Shown piece after piece: positions 11,196-43,809 of a stretch of DNA of 43,809 nt. A program made the translations under genes and the position numbers. Location of the stretch: NCBI GenBank assembly GCA_005778115.1, contig SXKJ01000027.1, positions 1 to 43,809 of the forward strand, written 5' to 3'. Within the stretch, counting starts at the first letter, position 1. Each line of letters opens with the position of its first letter. The notes below the pieces were generated by a model. The model was not told the DNA's origin. It did no database searches and was given only the letters and a program-made list of their open reading frames with translations. Origin of the DNA: Planctomyces sp. (GTDB lineage: Bacteria; Planctomycetota; Planctomycetia; Planctomycetales; Planctomycetaceae).

Positions 11196-11247
11196 GGGAG
11201 CACCCTTTCTGCACCGGACCCGCTCACCGGGATAATTTCAACCTTTG

Positions 11248-11314
11248 GCACGACGCGCCAGCGAGTGGCCTGAGTGAGCGGCGTGCTGTCAGATCACTCG
11301 CTGGCGCGTCGTGC
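11248..11314. repeat. Palindrome family A, copy 2
   Basis: Perfect 20-base arms at 11248-11267 and 11295-11314 (GCACGACGCGCCAGCGAGTG) enclose a 27-base loop. The loop is unrelated to those of the other copies. It lies between two minus-strand genes, 53 bases upstream of the coiled-coil gene and 114 bases after the haem protein gene. Confidence 0.92.
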
Positions 11315-11428
11315 TAAAGTCATTCTAAACCAGATCGGCCGAATTCTATCGGTCGCTTTGCCAATTTCGACAGGTGAAGTCCGGCGAACCCGCATCGCGG
11401 GTTACAAAGACTCAAAGGTTTGCCTGGG

Positions 11429-28886: not shown

Positions 28887-28943
28887 AGCACGACGCGCGA
28901 GCGAGTGAATTTCTCAAACGACCACTCGCTGGCGCGTCGTGCT
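28887..28943. repeat. Palindrome family A, copy 3
   Basis: Arms 28887-28907 and 28923-28943 (21 bases, one mismatch) contain AGCACGACGCGC and AGCGAGTG around a 15-base loop. It lies between divergent genes, 67 bases upstream of the GYF gene and 160 bases upstream of the lipoprotein gene, so it cannot be a terminator for either. Confidence 0.9.
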
Positions 28944-30672: not shown

Positions 30673-30735
30673 GTTAGCGCGACGCGCAAGCGAGTGAGCT
30701 TCTGGAACAATCACTCGCTTGCGCGTCGTGCTAAC
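30673..30735. repeat. Palindrome family A, copy 4
   Basis: Arms 30673-30697 and 30711-30735 (25 bases, one mismatch) begin GTTAGC and carry CGACGCGCAAGCGAGTGA, around a 13-base loop. It is the longest copy of the family. It lies between the DUF1559 start and the stop of the cytochrome/propeller gene, both on the minus strand. Confidence 0.93.
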
Positions 30736-30798: not shown

Positions 30799-33700
30799 TC
30801 AATCGGCCAACTCGTGAATGGTGTTGTGGATGGTCCCTTGAATCGGCGTCCCTTCCGCCGAGCGGAGCGAGAAGTTGATTTCCATGCACCAGGTGGGACG
30901 CAGCTCGGCAACGTCCAGCGTGATGGTCTTCGAGTCGCCCGACAGCTTTGCACCGCGGACTTCGAGCAACCTCTCGTCGTAATGCTTCGATCCATAATCC
31001 TTGGTCCGTTTCAGTGACCACGTTTTGATTTGCAGATTCTTCACGTCGAGCGATGCCGCGTCGAGTGGCTCGGTGAAGGTGAGCTTCAGCCCGGACTTGG
31101 TGGCGTTTAGACCGACGGGCAAGTGCATGGGCTGGCCGGTGGCTCGCAGGCGATACAGGCCGCCGGGATAGGTTGCGTTGCCGGCCCAGGCGAACATGCC
31201 GCAGAGATAGAGTTGCCCGTCCAACGGATGAAACCGGCCGCGCATTACACCGGTCGGAAACAGCGGCAGCGGCAACTCGATCATGCCTCCCTGCATCGTC
31301 CCGCGCACGTTTTCATGCGGCACAAGAAACACTTTGCCGTAGCCGTAAGACAGATTCAGCAGCGAGCCTTTCAATGGTCCCCAGCGATCGCTCTCGACCC
31401 ACAACAGCTCAGCGGGCGAGCGGTCGAAGGCGTTGGTGATCCAGCACAGCGGCGGGACCATCGCGGATTCTGACGAGTCGGTCACATCGTGGTAGCCCAG
31501 CATGTTGCCATAGAACTTGGGTTTGCCGGACGGGTCCACCGTAATCCAGTTGATGCGGTTCTTCGGATTCCAAAATCCTTCCTGATCGGTGACGACAAAC
31601 GAGCCGTCGGGATTGAGGCAGACTCCGTTCGCGGCACGAAAACCGTTCGCCAGGATGTCGGTGCGCGAGCCGTCTTTGCTCACACGCAACAGCGTCCCGT
31701 GATGCGGCACGACAGCCGCCTTTCCGTGACAGCCCGACTTGGCGTAATAGAAGTTACCCGCCGCGTCGGTTTGCAGACCCATCGCGAACTCGTGGAAGTG
31801 CTCAGTGACTTGATGATCGTTGTTGAGGCACTGATAGAAGTCGATCTCGCCGTCGCCATTGAGATCATGCAAAACGGTGAGTTGATCGCGACACGTCACA
31901 TGGATTTTGCCCTCGACGATCTTCAGCCCCAGCGGCTGGAACATTCCGGATGCGATCCGCTGCCAACGTAGGTCAGCCTTTCCAGGCTGACTCTCAACGA
32001 GCCACACGTCGCCATCCCACGAACAGACGGCGATGCGGCCATCGGGAAAGAAGTCGAGCCCGGTGAATCGAGTTTGTGCCAACCATGGATTCGATTCAGG
32101 AGCGGTCAGCATATCGGCCGCAAACGGGCCGTTGTCGGCACCGAGCACCGCTTTCGTTTCCAGCTTCTGCGGCCAGCGCGGCGGGCCACCATTGGTCAGT
32201 GCGGTCAGGTCGCGATCGGCGTCCGGGATCGACTGATCGGCGTAATCGTCAGTCTTCGTGAGCGGCACGGCGCTAGCCGCCGATGTTTTCCGAGAACCGG
32301 CGGCTAGCGCCTTGCCGTTCACGGAATCAGAAGGCAGCCAAACGGTGAAACGTAACGGTTCCTTGCCGGCGGGGATTCGTAGTCTCAATCGTCCGTCAGA
32401 AGCCGTCCATTCGGCAGCGATGTTGCGCGGTGCGAATCCGGCAACGAGCGAGCGAGCGGCATTGGCCGGCGCGAACTGCACGACCGACTTGTCCGCATGG
32501 CTGATGATCGTCGGCCGCGCATCATGCGCCGGATGCTCGGCAACTTGCAGCAATAGATCACGATCGCGCGGCCCGATGTTGAACGTCCGCAGAAAAAGCG
32601 GTGCTTGGTCCACATCCGTAGCCGAAGTCGTGAGACTTCGATCCGAACTCTCACGAGTTCGGCTACCGGATGCGATCACCGCCTCGCGAGTCATCAGTCG
32701 TGGCGACTCCAGCACCTCGGTGGTGTCGATCGAGTACGAGAAGACCACTTGTTGACCGTGGTGATACAGCCCGCGATATGTGCCCCAGCCGTGAGGCAGC
32801 GGGCCATAGCGTTTGCCATCGCGGCCTTTCACTCGCTGGTCATCCAAAAACTCGCCGCTGGCGGGATTCGCCCAGCCTGGCCCGGTCGAGTTGGCGAACG
32901 CCGTCTGCCCGACGACTCGCGGATGCACGCCGTGCGCGCCGTTGAATTGAATCCCCTGCCAGTCGATGAAGGTCGTAGCAGCGTCGCTCCCCGACGCTGA
33001 TTTCGAGTCGCGGGGCGATTCGGCTACGTTCCACGCAGCCGCCGCGCGCAGCGTGTCCGTGTCAAAGATCATCCAGTGCCGGCCGCGCGAGACGCCCCCC
33101 GCACCGGGATCGAGCCGCACCGCGACTCCCTTGTACGCGAGGTTGTGCTCCGGCCCCGGCACTTCAAACGTGTGAGCCAGACTCGGCCCATAATCCATCG
33201 CGGACCACGGAACGATCTTGCTCGGTTCCGGGCCGCGCGTGTCTCCCTTCGGCAGCCGCGACAACAACGCCTGATCAATCGCCACGAATTGCGTCGGATT
33301 GTGCGGCTTGAGGTACGTCTCACGGACGTAGTGGATGACATCGTATTTCTGCGACGGCACCATCCAGGTTTGCGGAGTCATCAGCCCAAAGCCGTGCGTC
33401 AGCGTGCGGTACATCGAGAGCGGATCGCTGCCGTTCTTGAATTTCCCCTCCGCGAATCGGAGCGACGTCGGCAGCGAGCCCGGCTTGTCCTTCGTCCCGT
33501 GGCAGTTGGCACAGACTCGCTGATAGATCGCTTCGCCACGTTTGAGCGAATCTGCATTCCAATCGCCAATAACCGCGGCGTGATCCAAATGCTTTTCATA
33601 TTCGGGCACGGTAAACGTCAGGAGCGATGCGGCAGGTTGAAGCTGCATGGCTCGAACCGCGCCGCCATCGCGAATCTCGATCAAGTAGCGGATCAGATCG

Positions 33701-34245
33701 AGGAACTGCTGTCGGCTATTCAACTGGTTGACCTGCCCCGCCGGCATAATCGACGTCGCGTTGACTTTGATGTCCTCAACGTCGGTCGCGGCGATGGTCG
33801 TTGGCTCGCCACCGCGCGTGATGTCACGCACGACAATCTTGTCCTGCGACCGCTCCACCAATAACGCCGCCAGAGATTTCCCATCGGCCGTGATCACTGT
33901 CACCGACTCAAACCCTTTGCGGATGACCTTCGACGGCAACAACACCGATTCGACCAGTGAATCGTCCGTGACCTCTTTGCCGATCGTTGTCAGATCCGGC
34001 CCCAGCGAGTTCGCTGGAGCTTTCCCCACCGCGTGACACTTCGAGCAGGCCATGTGCGGCTGAAAGAAGACAACGGCTCCGCGAATCGCATCCCCCTCGG
34101 CCTTCGCGAGAGAGACCAACTCCGCAGCCGGGACTCGCCGGAGATCCTCGTCGAGCGTTTGTGCCGAACAGGTCGAAGCCAAAGCGACCAACGCCACAGC
34201 GCCGCGTCGCAAAAACGATGTCGTGCGGACAGTCCAGATACTCAT
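30799..34245 (-). CDS. Large c-type cytochrome and beta-propeller protein with four in-frame palindromes
   Basis: Two haem sites are visible: MACSKCHAVG near residue 65, inside a planctomycete putative haem-binding domain, and VCANCHGTKD near residue 244. A beta-sheet-rich middle region follows, and from about residue 710 a sugar-dehydrogenase-like propeller (FTGLDFFPDGRIAVCSWDGDVWLVES, HDLNGDGEIDFYQCLNN, GGLYRLRATGQPM). The protein has 1148 residues. ATG 34245 overlaps the esterase stop by ATGA, so the two are coupled. MSIWTVRTTSFLRRGAVALVAL is a signal peptide. It would act in the periplasm, perhaps in oxidation of a carbohydrate; that is inference. Four palindromic repeats lie within the frame at 31972-31991, 32258-32322, 32618-32666 and 32975-33027 without breaking it. 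Confidence 0.85.
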   Translation of the reverse strand: MSIWTVRTTSFLRRGAVALVALASTCSAQTLDEDLRRVPAAELVSLAKAEGDAIRGAVVFFQPHMACSKCHAVGKAPANSLGPDLTTIGKEVTDDSLVESVLLPSKVIRKGFESVTVITADGKSLAALLVERSQDKIVVRDITRGGEPTTIAATDVEDIKVNATSIMPAGQVNQLNSRQQFLDLIRYLIEIRDGGAVRAMQLQPAASLLTFTVPEYEKHLDHAAVIGDWNADSLKRGEAIYQRVCANCHGTKDKPGSLPTSLRFAEGKFKNGSDPLSMYRTLTHGFGLMTPQTWMVPSQKYDVIHYVRETYLKPHNPTQFVAIDQALLSRLPKGDTRGPEPSKIVPWSAMDYGPSLAHTFEVPGPEHNLAYKGVAVRLDPGAGGVSRGRHWMIFDTDTLRAAAAWNVAESPRDSKSASGSDAATTFIDWQGIQFNGAHGVHPRVVGQTAFANSTGPGWANPASGEFLDDQRVKGRDGKRYGPLPHGWGTYRGLYHHGQQVVFSYSIDTTEVLESPRLMTREAVIASGSRTRESSDRSLTTSATDVDQAPLFLRTFNIGPRDRDLLLQVAEHPAHDARPTIISHADKSVVQFAPANAARSLVAGFAPRNIAAEWTASDGRLRLRIPAGKEPLRFTVWLPSDSVNGKALAAGSRKTSAASAVPLTKTDDYADQSIPDADRDLTALTNGGPPRWPQKLETKAVLGADNGPFAADMLTAPESNPWLAQTRFTGLDFFPDGRIAVCSWDGDVWLVESQPGKADLRWQRIASGMFQPLGLKIVEGKIHVTCRDQLTVLHDLNGDGEIDFYQCLNNDHQVTEHFHEFAMGLQTDAAGNFYYAKSGCHGKAAVVPHHGTLLRVSKDGSRTDILANGFRAANGVCLNPDGSFVVTDQEGFWNPKNRINWITVDPSGKPKFYGNMLGYHDVTDSSESAMVPPLCWITNAFDRSPAELLWVESDRWGPLKGSLLNLSYGYGKVFLVPHENVRGTMQGGMIELPLPLFPTGVMRGRFHPLDGQLYLCGMFAWAGNATYPGGLYRLRATGQPMHLPVGLNATKSGLKLTFTEPLDAASLDVKNLQIKTWSLKRTKDYGSKHYDERLLEVRGAKLSGDSKTITLDVAELRPTWCMEINFSLRSAEGTPIQGTIHNTIHELAD
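31972..31991. repeat. Palindrome within the cytochrome/propeller gene, site 1
   Basis: GTCAGCCT and AGGCTGAC pair around TTCC. On the plus strand the left flank is CGTAG, as in the other GTAG-type elements. In the gene it encodes ESQPGKADLRW between VWLV and QRI. Confidence 0.75.
32258..32322. repeat. Palindrome family B, copy 3, within the cytochrome/propeller gene
   Basis: The 25-base arms 32258-32282 and 32298-32322 match at 23 positions, with GGCGCTAGCCGCCG at the inner end, around a 15-base loop. The arm matches the inner palindrome of copy 1. In the gene it encodes VNGKALAAGSRKTSAASAV followed by PLT, low-complexity sequence unlike its surroundings. Confidence 0.9.
32618..32666. repeat. 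Palindrome within the cytochrome/propeller gene, site 3
   Basis: The 23-base arms 32618-32640 and 32644-32666 match at 21 positions around ATC, beginning GTAGCCGAAGTCGTGAGA. The gene reads through it as SGSRTRESSDRSLTTSATD, Ser/Arg/Thr-rich and unlike the flanking domain. Confidence 0.9.
32975..33027. repeat. Palindrome within the cytochrome/propeller gene, site 4
   Basis: The arms 32975-32995 and 33007-33027 match at 16 of 21 positions and start GTAG and end CTAC. An inner perfect 7-bp stem AGCGTCG/CGACGCT lies in the left half. The gene reads through it as VAESPRDSKSASGSDAAT. Confidence 0.7.
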
Positions 34246-40290: not shown

Positions 40291-42723
40291 TCACTCTCCG
40301 CGCGCGGCAGTGAGCAGTTCCTTGAGCTTGGGTTCCAATGACTCGGCGAAGAGGGCGTAGCCTTTCGCGCTCAGATGCAGCAGGTCGGGGGCGATCTCTT
40401 TCGAGAGCGTTCCATCGGCGGTGATGAGCTTCGCGTTCACGTTCAAGAAGTGGACTCGGCGGCCGTCGGCGAGCGCGGGGAGCAGAGCATTCACGGCTTC
40501 GCATTTGCGACGCCACGGGTCGGCGACATCGGGGCCGCGAGGGAGGATGCCCAGCAGCACGACTTTTGAGCGCGGGCATTTTTCGGCGAGCGCATCGAGA
40601 ATCGCGCGGATACCAGCAGTGATTTGTTCGGGGGTGAAGTCGCCGTGCCGCACGTTGTTCGTCCCGATGAGCAACACGATCGCTTTGGGGAAGATGCCGT
40701 CGAATTCACCGTTGCGGACTCGCCACAGGACGTGCTGCGTCGAGTCACCACTGAAGCCGTAGTTTGCCGCCTTAAGCCGGACGAAGTGCGCTTGCCAGGC
40801 AGCCTTGCCGGCGGTCTCCCAACCCTGCGTGATGCTGTCGCCGAGGAAGATGATCTCGCCACTGCCCGCTTTGGACTCGGCCACCTTCGCGGCGTGACGC
40901 GCGGGCCACCAACCGAACTTGCCCCTCGTCTCGGTTCGCGCTTCGGGCACGTTCGGCACGCTTGCCCCTTCCTGCACCCAATCCAACGGAAAGCGTGCGA
41001 AGACAAGACCGGCCGCGTCGGTGCTCTCGTAAAGCACGCCGATGCGACCATCGCGCAGCACGGTGAGGCACGAATACATCGAGCCGCTGGGATCGAGCAG
41101 CCGCCCGTTGCTCCAGGTGCGGCCGGCGTCGGTGCTGGAGCGGATCGTCAACGCAACTCGGCGTTGCGTGTGATTCGGGTTCGAGAAGATCAGTTCGCCA
41201 TGCGGATGCCGAATGAGACTTGCCATGCAAGTCGGGTCGGGCACGGTGAGCCACGGTTCGGTCCACTTGCCCTGCATGACATCGCCGCGCCACTCCCAAC
41301 GAGCCCACGCGCGAACACCGGCACGAGCTTCGTTCCGCATCGAGAGCAGCAGCGATCCATCTGCGAGTTCGACAATCGCGCTCTCACTGGTCGGCGGCGA
41401 GCCGGGAATCGCAGCGGGCGAAATCTTCCATGTGCTGCCGCCGTCGCGACTGGCGAGGAAACTCGAGTGCGGCACGTTGTCCGCTCCCTTGAACTGAGCA
41501 GAGAAGACCAGCGTGCCGTCGCGCAGCTGAATGCCATTGCCCGGCCCGTTGAAGCACATTCTCCACGCAGGGTCTTTCACCTGCGAAGTGATGTTGATCG
41601 GCGACGACCACGTCACGCCATCATCGACGCTTTTCACGAGAACGAACTGCCCAGTCTCGTCAGGCGTCAGACCGGGGCCAGAGCCGTTCCACGCACGAGC
41701 ACCTTTCGACCACAACGCCGCGACGAAGATGCTGCCCGTCCGTTGATCCACGAGCACCGCCGGATCACCCACTCCGTTGCCGTGCGAGCCGGCGACGGCG
41801 GCATCGAAGTCGATGATGCGACGCATCGAACTCCAAGTTGCGCCATCGTCGGTCGAGCGCATCGCGCCCACGTCGATGTCGGCCGGAAGATCGCCGCCGT
41901 GCTTGTGCCGCAGATCGAAGACGGCAATGAGCGTCCCTTTCGGCGTCGTCGCCAGACCAGGAATGCGATAGGTGTGAACGCCATCGTCCCCCTGTTTGCG
42001 GAGCGTCGTCCGGAAGATGCGCGGATCGTTGACGAACTGCAAAGCCTGCGGTTGCTGAGCCGCAGGCAGTTCCTTCGGAGCGCCCCACTTGGCCTGCAAG
42101 TAATTCGCGACCTCCTTCAACTCCGCCTCGTTGAGTGCTCGCGGATAAACGAGCACCTCAGCGACATCGCAAACGAGCCCTTCCTGAGTCGCGACGTTCG
42201 CACCCAGAATGAACCCGCCGAGCGGCGCACCCTCCTTGCCAAACACAAACGTATGAGTCTGCCAGCCTCTATCACTCGCAGGTGCGGAAGCCTTCGCCGC
42301 CGATTTCCAATTCACATCGCTCCACTTCACCGGCGTGCTGCCGACGCGCGTGCTGCCATCAAACAAAGTCCCCTGCCCCGCCGCCGGCACACGCGCGAAG
42401 ACCGCGACCGTACGCTCTCCCGTGAGCGTGCCCCAAGAACCCACCGCCTGCCACAGCGCCGCCGAGCCATTGAACCGCACGACCGTTCGAGCCCCGCCGA
42501 CCGTCTCCACACGCACCGCCTGAGGCCGCCCGACAACCCGCATCAACGCCCGCGCCGCGCCATCAGCACCGGCGTTTTCCCACGAGGAGACGAGCGGCCC
42601 ATCTGCCTTCACACCGTCCTCGCGATACCAAGCATGTAATGGCCCAATAGGCGGCTCGGTGGAGTGCAGCGCAGCCAGCGGCTCGAGCAGAAGGACGGCG
42701 AGGATCGTGAGTGTGTTTTTCAT
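40291..42723 (-). CDS. Secreted fusion of LamG-like, sialidase and SGNH hydrolase domains
   Basis: The 810-residue protein has a signal peptide (MKNTLTILAVLLLEPLAALH). Residues about 25-225 resemble a LamG/concanavalin domain. Residues about 245-590 form a sialidase-type propeller: YRIPGLA near 252 is the FRIP/YRIP arginine motif, and Asp-boxes STDDGATW, SVDDGVTW, SRDGGSTW and SSTDAGRTW are present. Residues about 615-800 form an SGNH hydrolase: FLGDSITQGW near 627 (Ser), LLIGTNN (Gly/Asn block) and PDLLHLSAKGY near 783 (Asp and His). The pair would remove sialic acid and an O-acetyl group from the same glycan, which is inference. ATG 42723 is chosen for the signal; the frame is open to 42906 through a repeat. 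Confidence 0.88.
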   Translation of the reverse strand: MKNTLTILAVLLLEPLAALHSTEPPIGPLHAWYREDGVKADGPLVSSWENAGADGAARALMRVVGRPQAVRVETVGGARTVVRFNGSAALWQAVGSWGTLTGERTVAVFARVPAAGQGTLFDGSTRVGSTPVKWSDVNWKSAAKASAPASDRGWQTHTFVFGKEGAPLGGFILGANVATQEGLVCDVAEVLVYPRALNEAELKEVANYLQAKWGAPKELPAAQQPQALQFVNDPRIFRTTLRKQGDDGVHTYRIPGLATTPKGTLIAVFDLRHKHGGDLPADIDVGAMRSTDDGATWSSMRRIIDFDAAVAGSHGNGVGDPAVLVDQRTGSIFVAALWSKGARAWNGSGPGLTPDETGQFVLVKSVDDGVTWSSPINITSQVKDPAWRMCFNGPGNGIQLRDGTLVFSAQFKGADNVPHSSFLASRDGGSTWKISPAAIPGSPPTSESAIVELADGSLLLSMRNEARAGVRAWARWEWRGDVMQGKWTEPWLTVPDPTCMASLIRHPHGELIFSNPNHTQRRVALTIRSSTDAGRTWSNGRLLDPSGSMYSCLTVLRDGRIGVLYESTDAAGLVFARFPLDWVQEGASVPNVPEARTETRGKFGWWPARHAAKVAESKAGSGEIIFLGDSITQGWETAGKAAWQAHFVRLKAANYGFSGDSTQHVLWRVRNGEFDGIFPKAIVLLIGTNNVRHGDFTPEQITAGIRAILDALAEKCPRSKVVLLGILPRGPDVADPWRRKCEAVNALLPALADGRRVHFLNVNAKLITADGTLSKEIAPDLLHLSAKGYALFAESLEPKLKELLTAARGE

Positions 42724-42756
42724 GATTGTTCCACCGATGGCACTCAGTTTCGATGA

Positions 42757-42876
42757 TTTGGACTGCGGCAGCCTGCTGCCGCTTTGGACTTGGCAGCCTG
42801 CTGCCAAGAAACCACACCGAGTTGTTCCGCAGCAGGCTGCAGAACGGAAAGCGGCAGCAGGCTGCCGCAGTCCAAA
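42757..42876. repeat. Compound palindrome with four core units
   Basis: Perfect 29-base arms lie at 42757-42785 and 42848-42876, containing GACTGCGGCAGCCTGCTGCC. Between them are two further palindromes, 42789-42808 (CTTGGCAG/CTGCCAAG) and 42824-42845 (imperfect, GTTCCGCAG core). All four units share the core GCAG-CCTG-CTGC or its complement. The whole lies between the sialidase gene and the next gene on the minus strand, 33 bases upstream of the sialidase ATG. Confidence 0.92.
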
Positions 42877-42902
42877 TCTGATCCTCGACAGATGAAGGCA
42901 CG

Positions 42903-43809
42903 TCACTCTTTTGCCAGTTCGCCGACCTCGGCCGGCGACAGTGGGCGTTCGAAGACCAAGGTGTGGCCGATGAGGCCTCGATAGTAGGCGTCGTGAAAGT
43001 AAAAAATCTCCGCGCCGAGGATCAGCGAAGGGACGATCCCTGAATCTGCGGGAAACTTCTTCGTCATCCCCTCACCAACAGGTTTGCCGTTGAGGTACAG
43101 ACGGATGTGCCACTGACCGGCGGACGGCTCAGCGGTCATCGCGACGTGGGTCCAGCGGTCGGCTTCGATCTTGGTTGGCGATTCGACGATGTCGTTGACG
43201 TTGATCCGCGCGGCAAGCTGATACGGAGCCTTCTGGCCATGCAGGCCAAGGATGAAGCGGCGCGCTCCGAAGCCGATGATGTCTCCTCTAGCTCCATGTT
43301 CCCCCTTGCCCATCTCGGCGGCGGGCTTGATCCAGGCGGCGAGCGTCACCCCTTTCATCGGTGCTCCACCGCCGTGATGGCCGGTCAGCGCGAGCGGCAG
43401 TGTGTCCTTGTCGGCATAGGCGGAGTGTCCGAGGTAGAAGCGACCGAGTCCGCTGTCGCGACGGTAGTCCTTTCGGTTCGTCAGATTGTCAGCGAAGCGA
43501 ATCGCCGGGCGACCCGAATCGACGACCCAGTCGAGGTTCGCAAGATCGAGATGGCCGAGCGGAAAGCCATTCGCGTTGGGCGAAGTGCCGAATGAACTCG
43601 CGTGGTTGAATACGAACAGGCCCTTTCCTTCGAGCATCCGATAGTCGGTGATCGCACCAACCGGCGCGGAACCGAAGCTCGGCGGTTGATCGTTCGGTTT
43701 CGACGCGACATCGGGCGGCGCGGCTTCGCCATCGGCAAGGCGTTTGAATTCGACATCGGTGACCAGCATCTCGCCGGTGCCGGAGTTGCCGAATGCGACC
43801 GACAGCGAA
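42903..43809 (-). CDS. LamG/concanavalin-like protein, N-terminus outside the window
   Basis: The stop is at 42903-42905 and the frame is still open at the window edge. The visible 302 residues begin SLSVAFGNSGTGEMLVTDVEFKRLADGE, which precedes the first internal Met. LAAWIKPAAEMGKGEHGARGDIIGFGARRFILGLHG and RWTHVAMTAEPSAGQWHIRLYLNGKPVGEG are the two conserved LamG (laminin G-like) segments, and LILGAEIFYFHDAYYRGLIGHTLVFERPLSPAEVGELA is its end. Such domains bind glycans or calcium and are frequent in planctomycete secreted proteins. It lies upstream of the sialidase fusion on the same strand, so the two may act on the same glycan. Catalytic domains, if any, are outside the window. Confidence 0.85.
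   Translation of the reverse strand, partial: SLSVAFGNSGTGEMLVTDVEFKRLADGEAAPPDVASKPNDQPPSFGSAPVGAITDYRMLEGKGLFVFNHASSFGTSPNANGFPLGHLDLANLDWVVDSGRPAIRFADNLTNRKDYRRDSGLGRFYLGHSAYADKDTLPLALTGHHGGGAPMKGVTLAAWIKPAAEMGKGEHGARGDIIGFGARRFILGLHGQKAPYQLAARINVNDIVESPTKIEADRWTHVAMTAEPSAGQWHIRLYLNGKPVGEGMTKKFPADSGIVPSLILGAEIFYFHDAYYRGLIGHTLVFERPLSPAEVGELAKE

Follow-up and report, generated by a model that had tools for sequence, protein, structure and literature searches.

In-frame palindromic elements of several families in protein loops of a planctomycete genus

Small palindromic repeats that carry the tag GTAG (GTAG REPs) and lie inside genes have precedents. According to the parts of Di Nocera et al. 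(2013; PMC3733652) used here, REPs are mostly intergenic, R. baltica (taken as Rhodopirellula baltica) is among the species with several GTAG REP families, and REPs are found inside genes of several species, most of all in Opitutus terrae (GTAG) and Rickettsia conorii (CGTC). The same parts suggest that a REP within a gene may be neutral where it falls in a flexible linker or loop, and describe different REPs at about one recB site in two Xanthomonas species. Of the classes into which Y1 transposases are divided, one rare class occurs chiefly in Planctomycetes, Acidobacteria and Proteobacteria, as given in the part of PMC6006769 used. GTAG REPs in planctomycetes and REPs inside genes are thus already known from the 2013 paper, and the remark in a first-pass annotation of the present locus that nothing comparable had been described in planctomycetes does not hold. 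On in-frame palindromes in planctomycete genes, we found no paper beyond PMC3733652 in the open literature, and the intragenic-REP supplement of that paper may itself list R. baltica cases. What is new here is the scale, and that unrelated families have colonised the same loops repeatedly.

The locus lies in a stretch of planctomycete DNA of 43,809 nucleotides, referred to below as the window. Its features are:

30799..34245, minus strand: host gene, with cytochrome-c-type domains, DUF6797 (Pfam) and a C-terminal part like soluble PQQ glucose dehydrogenases
31968..31991, plus strand: site 1, a single GTAG REP unit with an 8-bp stem and a 4-nt loop (hairpin scan)
32257..32323, no strand assigned: site 2, a 67-nt family-B palindrome without GTAG, 26-nt arms (92% complementary), 15-nt spacer
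32618..32666, no strand assigned: site 3, two GTAG REP units in a head-to-head dimer, 23-nt arms (91% complementary)
32975..33027, no strand assigned: site 4, two GTAG units with unlike stems in a head-to-head dimer, perfect 8-bp stem at 32975

The first-pass annotation had described four palindromes clustered in about 1 kb of one gene, with the frame open through all of them. Both statements stand: the sites fall within 1.06 kb (31968-33027), and the minus-strand frame of 30799-34245, which in its longest form reaches 34293, is open throughout. The arms of 21-25 bases claimed for three sites are borne out at sites 2 and 3, where near-complementary arms exceed 20 nt, and not at site 1, where they are 8 nt. 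Read in frame on the minus strand, site 1 encodes about ESQPGKADL. Site 4 is an imperfect palindrome, as had been noticed, because its two facing GTAG hairpins have unlike stems; the opposite unit, which was missed by the hairpin listing and recognized by eye, ends in CTAC at 33024-33027 and has one stem mismatch. Sites 1, 3 and 4 are GTAG REPs, each having GTAG beside a hairpin of 5-13 bp (with the one mismatch in the second unit of site 4). Two inverted REPs that form one element are termed a REPIN, and sites 3 and 4 are built in this way. Site 2 belongs to a second, REP-like family; a GTAG tag was sought there and is absent, the site beginning CGTGAGCGG, and hence it is not filed as a GTAG REP.

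The host gene is widespread: 48 of 59 genomes, its own among them, yield an orthologue or paralogue at E<=1e-50, and CxxCH motifs at residues 67-71 and 245-249 are invariant in a 33-member alignment. In Foldseek, the AlphaFold model of the protein (mean pLDDT 78.1) is similar to soluble PQQ glucose dehydrogenases along some 340-460 columns. It has six internal segments with pLDDT below 50 (259-265, 411-420, 434-437, 523-544, 641-663 and 1021-1023), and three of these overlap the sites: 411-420 site 4 (its residue position obtained by arithmetic), 523-544 site 3 and 641-663 site 2. These inserts are present in few of the aligned relatives, and that by itself lowers pLDDT there. Site 1 is modelled as a turn between two strands. 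Separately, about 150-200 extra residues are present near window residues 575-600 in L042, L043 and L044 (the same-genus orthologues of G004, G006 and G003; for the G-numbers see below), and are lacking in the window gene and in G010.

The abundance of such elements was assessed in a sample of the same genome comprising 40 random contigs and the window (565,420 nt), in which 373 genes were called by a purpose-written codon-usage caller rather than a published one. A perfect hairpin of at least 8 bp follows GTAG in 65 of 1573 cases, about 60 times the rate of the median tetranucleotide (0.65 per 1000); the runner-up, CGTA (32 of 2075), overlaps GTAG. Stems differ between GTAG units, both arms changing together, and loops are short, which with the enrichment makes up the GTAG REP signature. 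Called genes contain 25 of the 65 units, intergenic DNA 33, and the remaining 7 straddle an edge; with the window left out, 16 of 61 are in genes and 60 nt or more from the ends. The bases preceding the units are C at -1 in 57% and C at -3 in 46%, and nothing else stood out in this search for a target motif.

Palindromes with arms of at least 17 nt and at least 85% complementarity, a filter that sites 1 and 4 of the window escape, number 153 in the sample (94 intergenic, 37 in genes, 22 across an edge), as against 0-3 over whole contigs in five Markov-1 simulations. Within called-gene sequences there are 39, as against 1, 0, 1, 1 and 0 in five codon shuffles. Thirty lie at least 60 nt from gene ends, in 25 of the 373 called genes (~7%, about 1 in 15); without the window this becomes 27 of 142, even though called coding sequence makes up 81% of the DNA; over the 522 kb concerned the density is 52 per Mb, equivalent to ~385 per genome if scaled up. 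By Pfam, the genes that bear them include MutS, PurL, PriA, a class-I tRNA synthetase, a P-type ATPase, a MurG-like glycosyltransferase, MnmG and MgsA, where names such as PurL, MnmG and MurG-like are our reading of the Pfam matches. Per Mb, the own-genome sample has 272 palindromes in all and 52 intragenic ones, whereas 77 loci of host-gene relatives (604 kb, all centred on one gene, three same-genus loci removed and at least one more, L153, still in) have 36 and 5; samples of 48-167 kb from other same-genus genomes have 11 to 337 palindromes in all.

Individual families can be followed in the same manner. A degenerate pattern for the site-1 unit matches the genome exactly at 146 places, its reversed control nowhere, and has 0-244 copies in 11 other same-genus genomes (0 in two; reversed control 0 throughout); outside the genus, the unit turned up in one of 40 other genomes drawn from the family. 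Site 2 had been assigned to an intergenic family B, rightly so: the half-palindrome pattern has 84 exact matches in its own genome and none for the reversed control, and 0-65 in the other same-genus genomes (0 in two; control 0). Units like site 3 recur in the sample, and the site-4 stem occurs there within the window only, at the level of a sample count. These copy numbers and the GTAG signature show a multi-family expansion in this planctomycete genus. As a side observation, palindromes with arms like ACGACGCGCAAGCGAGTG lie at 1392-1455, 11243-11319, 28887-28943 and 30673-30735 of the window; the 11 members of this family in the sample are intergenic (10) or across a gene edge (1), none being in called genes, unlike the three largest palindrome families, which do have members in genes. 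Another palindrome, with 50-nt arms, is found at window 42755-42878, near the start of the ORF 40291-42906, and its translation hinges on where the ORF truly begins.

Within proteins, the palindromes tend to lie outside domains. Of 25 midpoints in 19 proteins (the 30 intragenic palindromes, less 7 without a family above the cut-off, plus window sites 1 and 4), 6 are inside Pfam stretches where 13.3 are expected (P=0.0008, or 0.0036 with MgsA counted inside), the best stretch per family being used and with the proviso that an insertion can itself weaken a domain match. The encoded peptides are enriched in Ser (2.15x), Pro (1.93x) and Gly (1.46x) and depleted in Ile, Tyr and Met, and most likely they have no specific function. 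The idea that the frame is kept because element length is a multiple of three was rejected, as the 30 intragenic lengths are 0, 1 and 2 mod 3.

Comparison of the window gene with its orthologues is most informative within the genus, the own genome being designated G000 and other genomes by other G-numbers, of which G001-G011 are of the same genus; L051, in which the longest ORF is antisense, is left out of what follows. In G003 none of the four loops has a palindrome. The site-1 loop has the same GTAG unit in G005 and G006, and purine-rich palindromes in G010 and G004. At the site-2 loop family B recurs in G004, G010 and G005 have other palindromes that differ from each other, and G003 and G006 have none. 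At site 3 the dimer of the window is also present in G010, a GTAG dimer of another stem in G004 and G006, and none in G003 or G005; the dimers of the two stem types may share common descent, given their joint GTAG and loop features. At site 4 there is a bigger array in G010, one degenerate unit in G004 and none in G003 or G006, while the G005 contig begins within this loop and, on our own reading, its stretch equals the end of family B. Every orthologue copy read keeps the frame. A set of 80 family members, made up of the window and 79 sequences from named records (L101 and L143 being the G010 and G004 genes once more), contains 15 palindromes; the window, L101, L143 and L146 account for 12 of these, each of which is at one of the four loops or at the N-terminus.

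The expectation that the four segments would be gaps in related orthologues is borne out at sites 2, 3 and 4, where loops without the element are shorter and the frame is open. It fails at site 1: the loop there has 9 aa, as against 9-23 aa in orthologues without the REP (12 in the same-genus G003), so that the REP stands in place of a loop and adds none. The converse situation, in which orthologues carry the same segments without the symmetry, is not the rule, the two partial cases being the degenerate site-4 unit in G004 and, in the PurL of G003, a decayed copy whose length is about the same. The proposal that these are palindromic elements read in frame within a conserved gene, as Rickettsia palindromic elements (RPE) are described to be, is right.

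Three further genes were compared. In PurL, for which 10 relatives were fetched (G010 having no match), the loop near residue 610 contains one GTAG family in the own genome, G007 and G009, another in G002 and G006, and a non-GTAG family in G004, of which G011 apparently keeps one arm; the G003 loop has an apparent G002-type copy in decay, G001 has a degenerate unit, and G005 and G008 have none. In G002 and G006 the element replaces the loop with almost no net change of length. In L173:6443-9040 the first of two palindromes was compared in 4 fetched relatives: the same family is present in the own genome and G007, a related one in G004 and a GTAG-type one in G010, with none in G003. Both palindromes of L166:10836-13472 are missing from all 6 fetched relatives. 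Outside that set, G006 (C341:57633-60269) holds a 100%-identical copy of this gene (G000:C110), and so the L166 palindromes are not unique to the own genome unless the contig is contamination; a contaminating contig in one MAG is probably the explanation. Between G000 and G006 the window-gene copies share only about 81-85% identity, and an 83% fragment is also present in G006. Unrelated families thus occupy one loop in 3 of the 4 genes examined, which do not constitute a random sample since they were picked for carrying palindromes in the own genome.

A link to Y1 transposases is suggested by their flanks. The genome has 16 Y1_Tnp matches, and inverted flanks score at least 17 at 11 of these 16 genes, as against at least 16 at 2 of 122 control genes; four palindrome families of the sample, that of site 1 among them, have copies on both sides of a Y1 gene (4 of 16 Y1 genes, 7 of 122 controls). 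This both-sided inverted-repeat test took the place of a plain BLAST comparison of palindrome arms with Y1 flanks, in which 46 of 153 matched, no more than with random windows (12-67); such raw matches are uninformative because large families also match random windows. A RAYT on contig C185 (L062:4378-5055; NF047646, 80 bits, exactly at the NCBIfam cut-off of 80) has variant site-1-type units upstream and an exact unit downstream, whose TAG is the stop codon of the gene, and the site-1 type is in this way associated with a RAYT on both sides. No parent gene was found for the stems of sites 3 and 4, nor an enzyme for family B; family B adjoins Y1 genes in L063, L065 and L067 on one side only, and across genomes its presence does not go together with that of the L065 type. 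A tie between family B and the RAYT-like genes of C50 and C460 was rejected on copy numbers, as G009 has such a gene at 78% and no exact B match, and G010 has 65 B matches and no close gene. In L063 and L065 a family-B palindrome lies just upstream of an open RAYT-like frame, and was perhaps inserted into these genes. Two other Y1 genes have inverted repeats on both sides: non-GTAG ones in L061 (G000:C85), of a family with 26 members in the sample, 5 in genes, and those in L066 (G000:C501), of a family with 4 members, 1 in genes.

Across 10 same-genus genomes, the number of Y1 genes shows no significant dose effect on palindrome density (rho 0.55, P=0.10), and the correlations with GTAG units (rho 0.31, P=0.39) and intragenic palindromes (rho 0.41, P=0.24) are no stronger. 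In G011, where no Y1 match is present, a 48-kb sample still has 207 palindromes per Mb. The site-1 unit also occurs where a close relative of the C185 RAYT is lacking, with 111 copies in G006 (best identity 37%) and 81 in G002 (34%), and in G004, with 244 copies, the close matches are two fragments only. MAG gaps, or loss of the enzyme after the spread, could be the cause.

We consider, with a probability of roughly three in four, that the segments are non-autonomous palindromic mobile elements which have been inserted into, or have replaced, tolerant loops in frame, are copied by Y1 enzymes, are purged elsewhere, and leave loops that are colonised again. The copying would probably be the work of RAYT/IS200-group Y1 tyrosine transposases, which most genomes of the genus encode; association is the basis on which RAYT-driven movement is probably the best mechanism. 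Copies that break a frame or a fold would be purged, as the shortage in genes and in Pfam domains suggests. Those in disordered loops or domain linkers would be read as Ser/Pro/Gly-rich peptides, would drift, and may shrink by in-frame deletion. The same loops would then be recolonised by other families, an order of events to which the unrelated occupants in three of the four genes point. What simple insertion does not predict is the near-zero net change of length at PurL of G002 and G006 and at site 1. It would fit the palindromes having spread by recombination or gene conversion between short similar palindromes, partly similar loops being overwritten, and not by transposition; on our own reading, the PurL element of G002 and G006 begins where G005 and G008 have similar native residues, and the persistence of copies in genomes without a close RAYT points the same way. 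We nevertheless regard conversion as unlikely, as site-1 copies lie on many contigs among the matches listed, the L166 sites are empty in every relative fetched, and inverted flanks are far commoner at Y1 genes than at control genes.

Two alternatives would attribute a role to the segments themselves. Hairpins might be kept for what they do in the mRNA, such as acting between protein domains to cause pausing or to lend stability, in keeping with the strong RNA folds predicted at sites 2 and 3 (z -8.2 and -8.3, with about -3 at sites 1 and 4) and with the 19 of 25 midpoints outside Pfam stretches; this is made very improbable by sister species in which the loops are empty and the gene is intact, by families that differ from species to species, and by the under-representation of palindromes in genes. 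Selection of the Ser/Pro/Gly-rich peptides as functional linkers would account for the biased composition and the location outside domains, but sequence and length turn over among species and the same proteins have empty loops, so that we give it hardly any credence. The mobile-element reading can also be extended: several unrelated families may jointly be a continuing source of new protein loops, which overwrite the same flexible loops in housekeeping proteins repeatedly and sometimes without net change of length, the loop sequence being largely set by the repeats current at the time. We put this forward tentatively, as a possible but doubtful generalisation.

Whether REPs in genes are an accident or a real source of protein change is left as speculation in the parts of PMC3733652 used here; with orthologue loops that are empty or have unrelated palindromes in sister species, this question is now testable. 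The genus offers a natural insertion series, in which small hairpin repeats seem to keep rewriting protein loops. For PurL and MutS established assays exist. There is a warning too: an insertion in a loop of a planctomycete protein need not reflect adaptation and may instead be repeat DNA of recent origin.

Set against the systems described previously, the elements most resemble the GTAG REP superfamily as presented in the parts of PMC3733652 used, with which they share the GTAG tag, short stems and loops, head-to-head dimers, high copy number, some intragenic copies and transposase genes flanked by units. They differ in that about 1 in 15 sampled genes is hit, non-GTAG families take part and unrelated families are found in one loop; those parts of the paper have one same-site case, that of recB in Xanthomonas. 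As with REPINs and RAYTs, two inverted REPs form one element and RAYT-group Y1 genes are present in the same genome, whereas REPs there are mostly intergenic (PMC3733652, same parts) and several families here are without an identified transposase. The TIR families of TIRYT transposases (PMC3733652, likewise) have a parallel in the L061 Y1 gene with its inverted non-GTAG flanking repeats, but no such gene is linked to site 2. The RPE of Rickettsia are similarly palindromes read in frame within genes; in a comparison by tag, confined to RPE-4 and RPE-6, these are CGTC repeats according to the same parts of PMC3733652, whereas sites 1, 3 and 4 here are GTAG and site 2 is neither.
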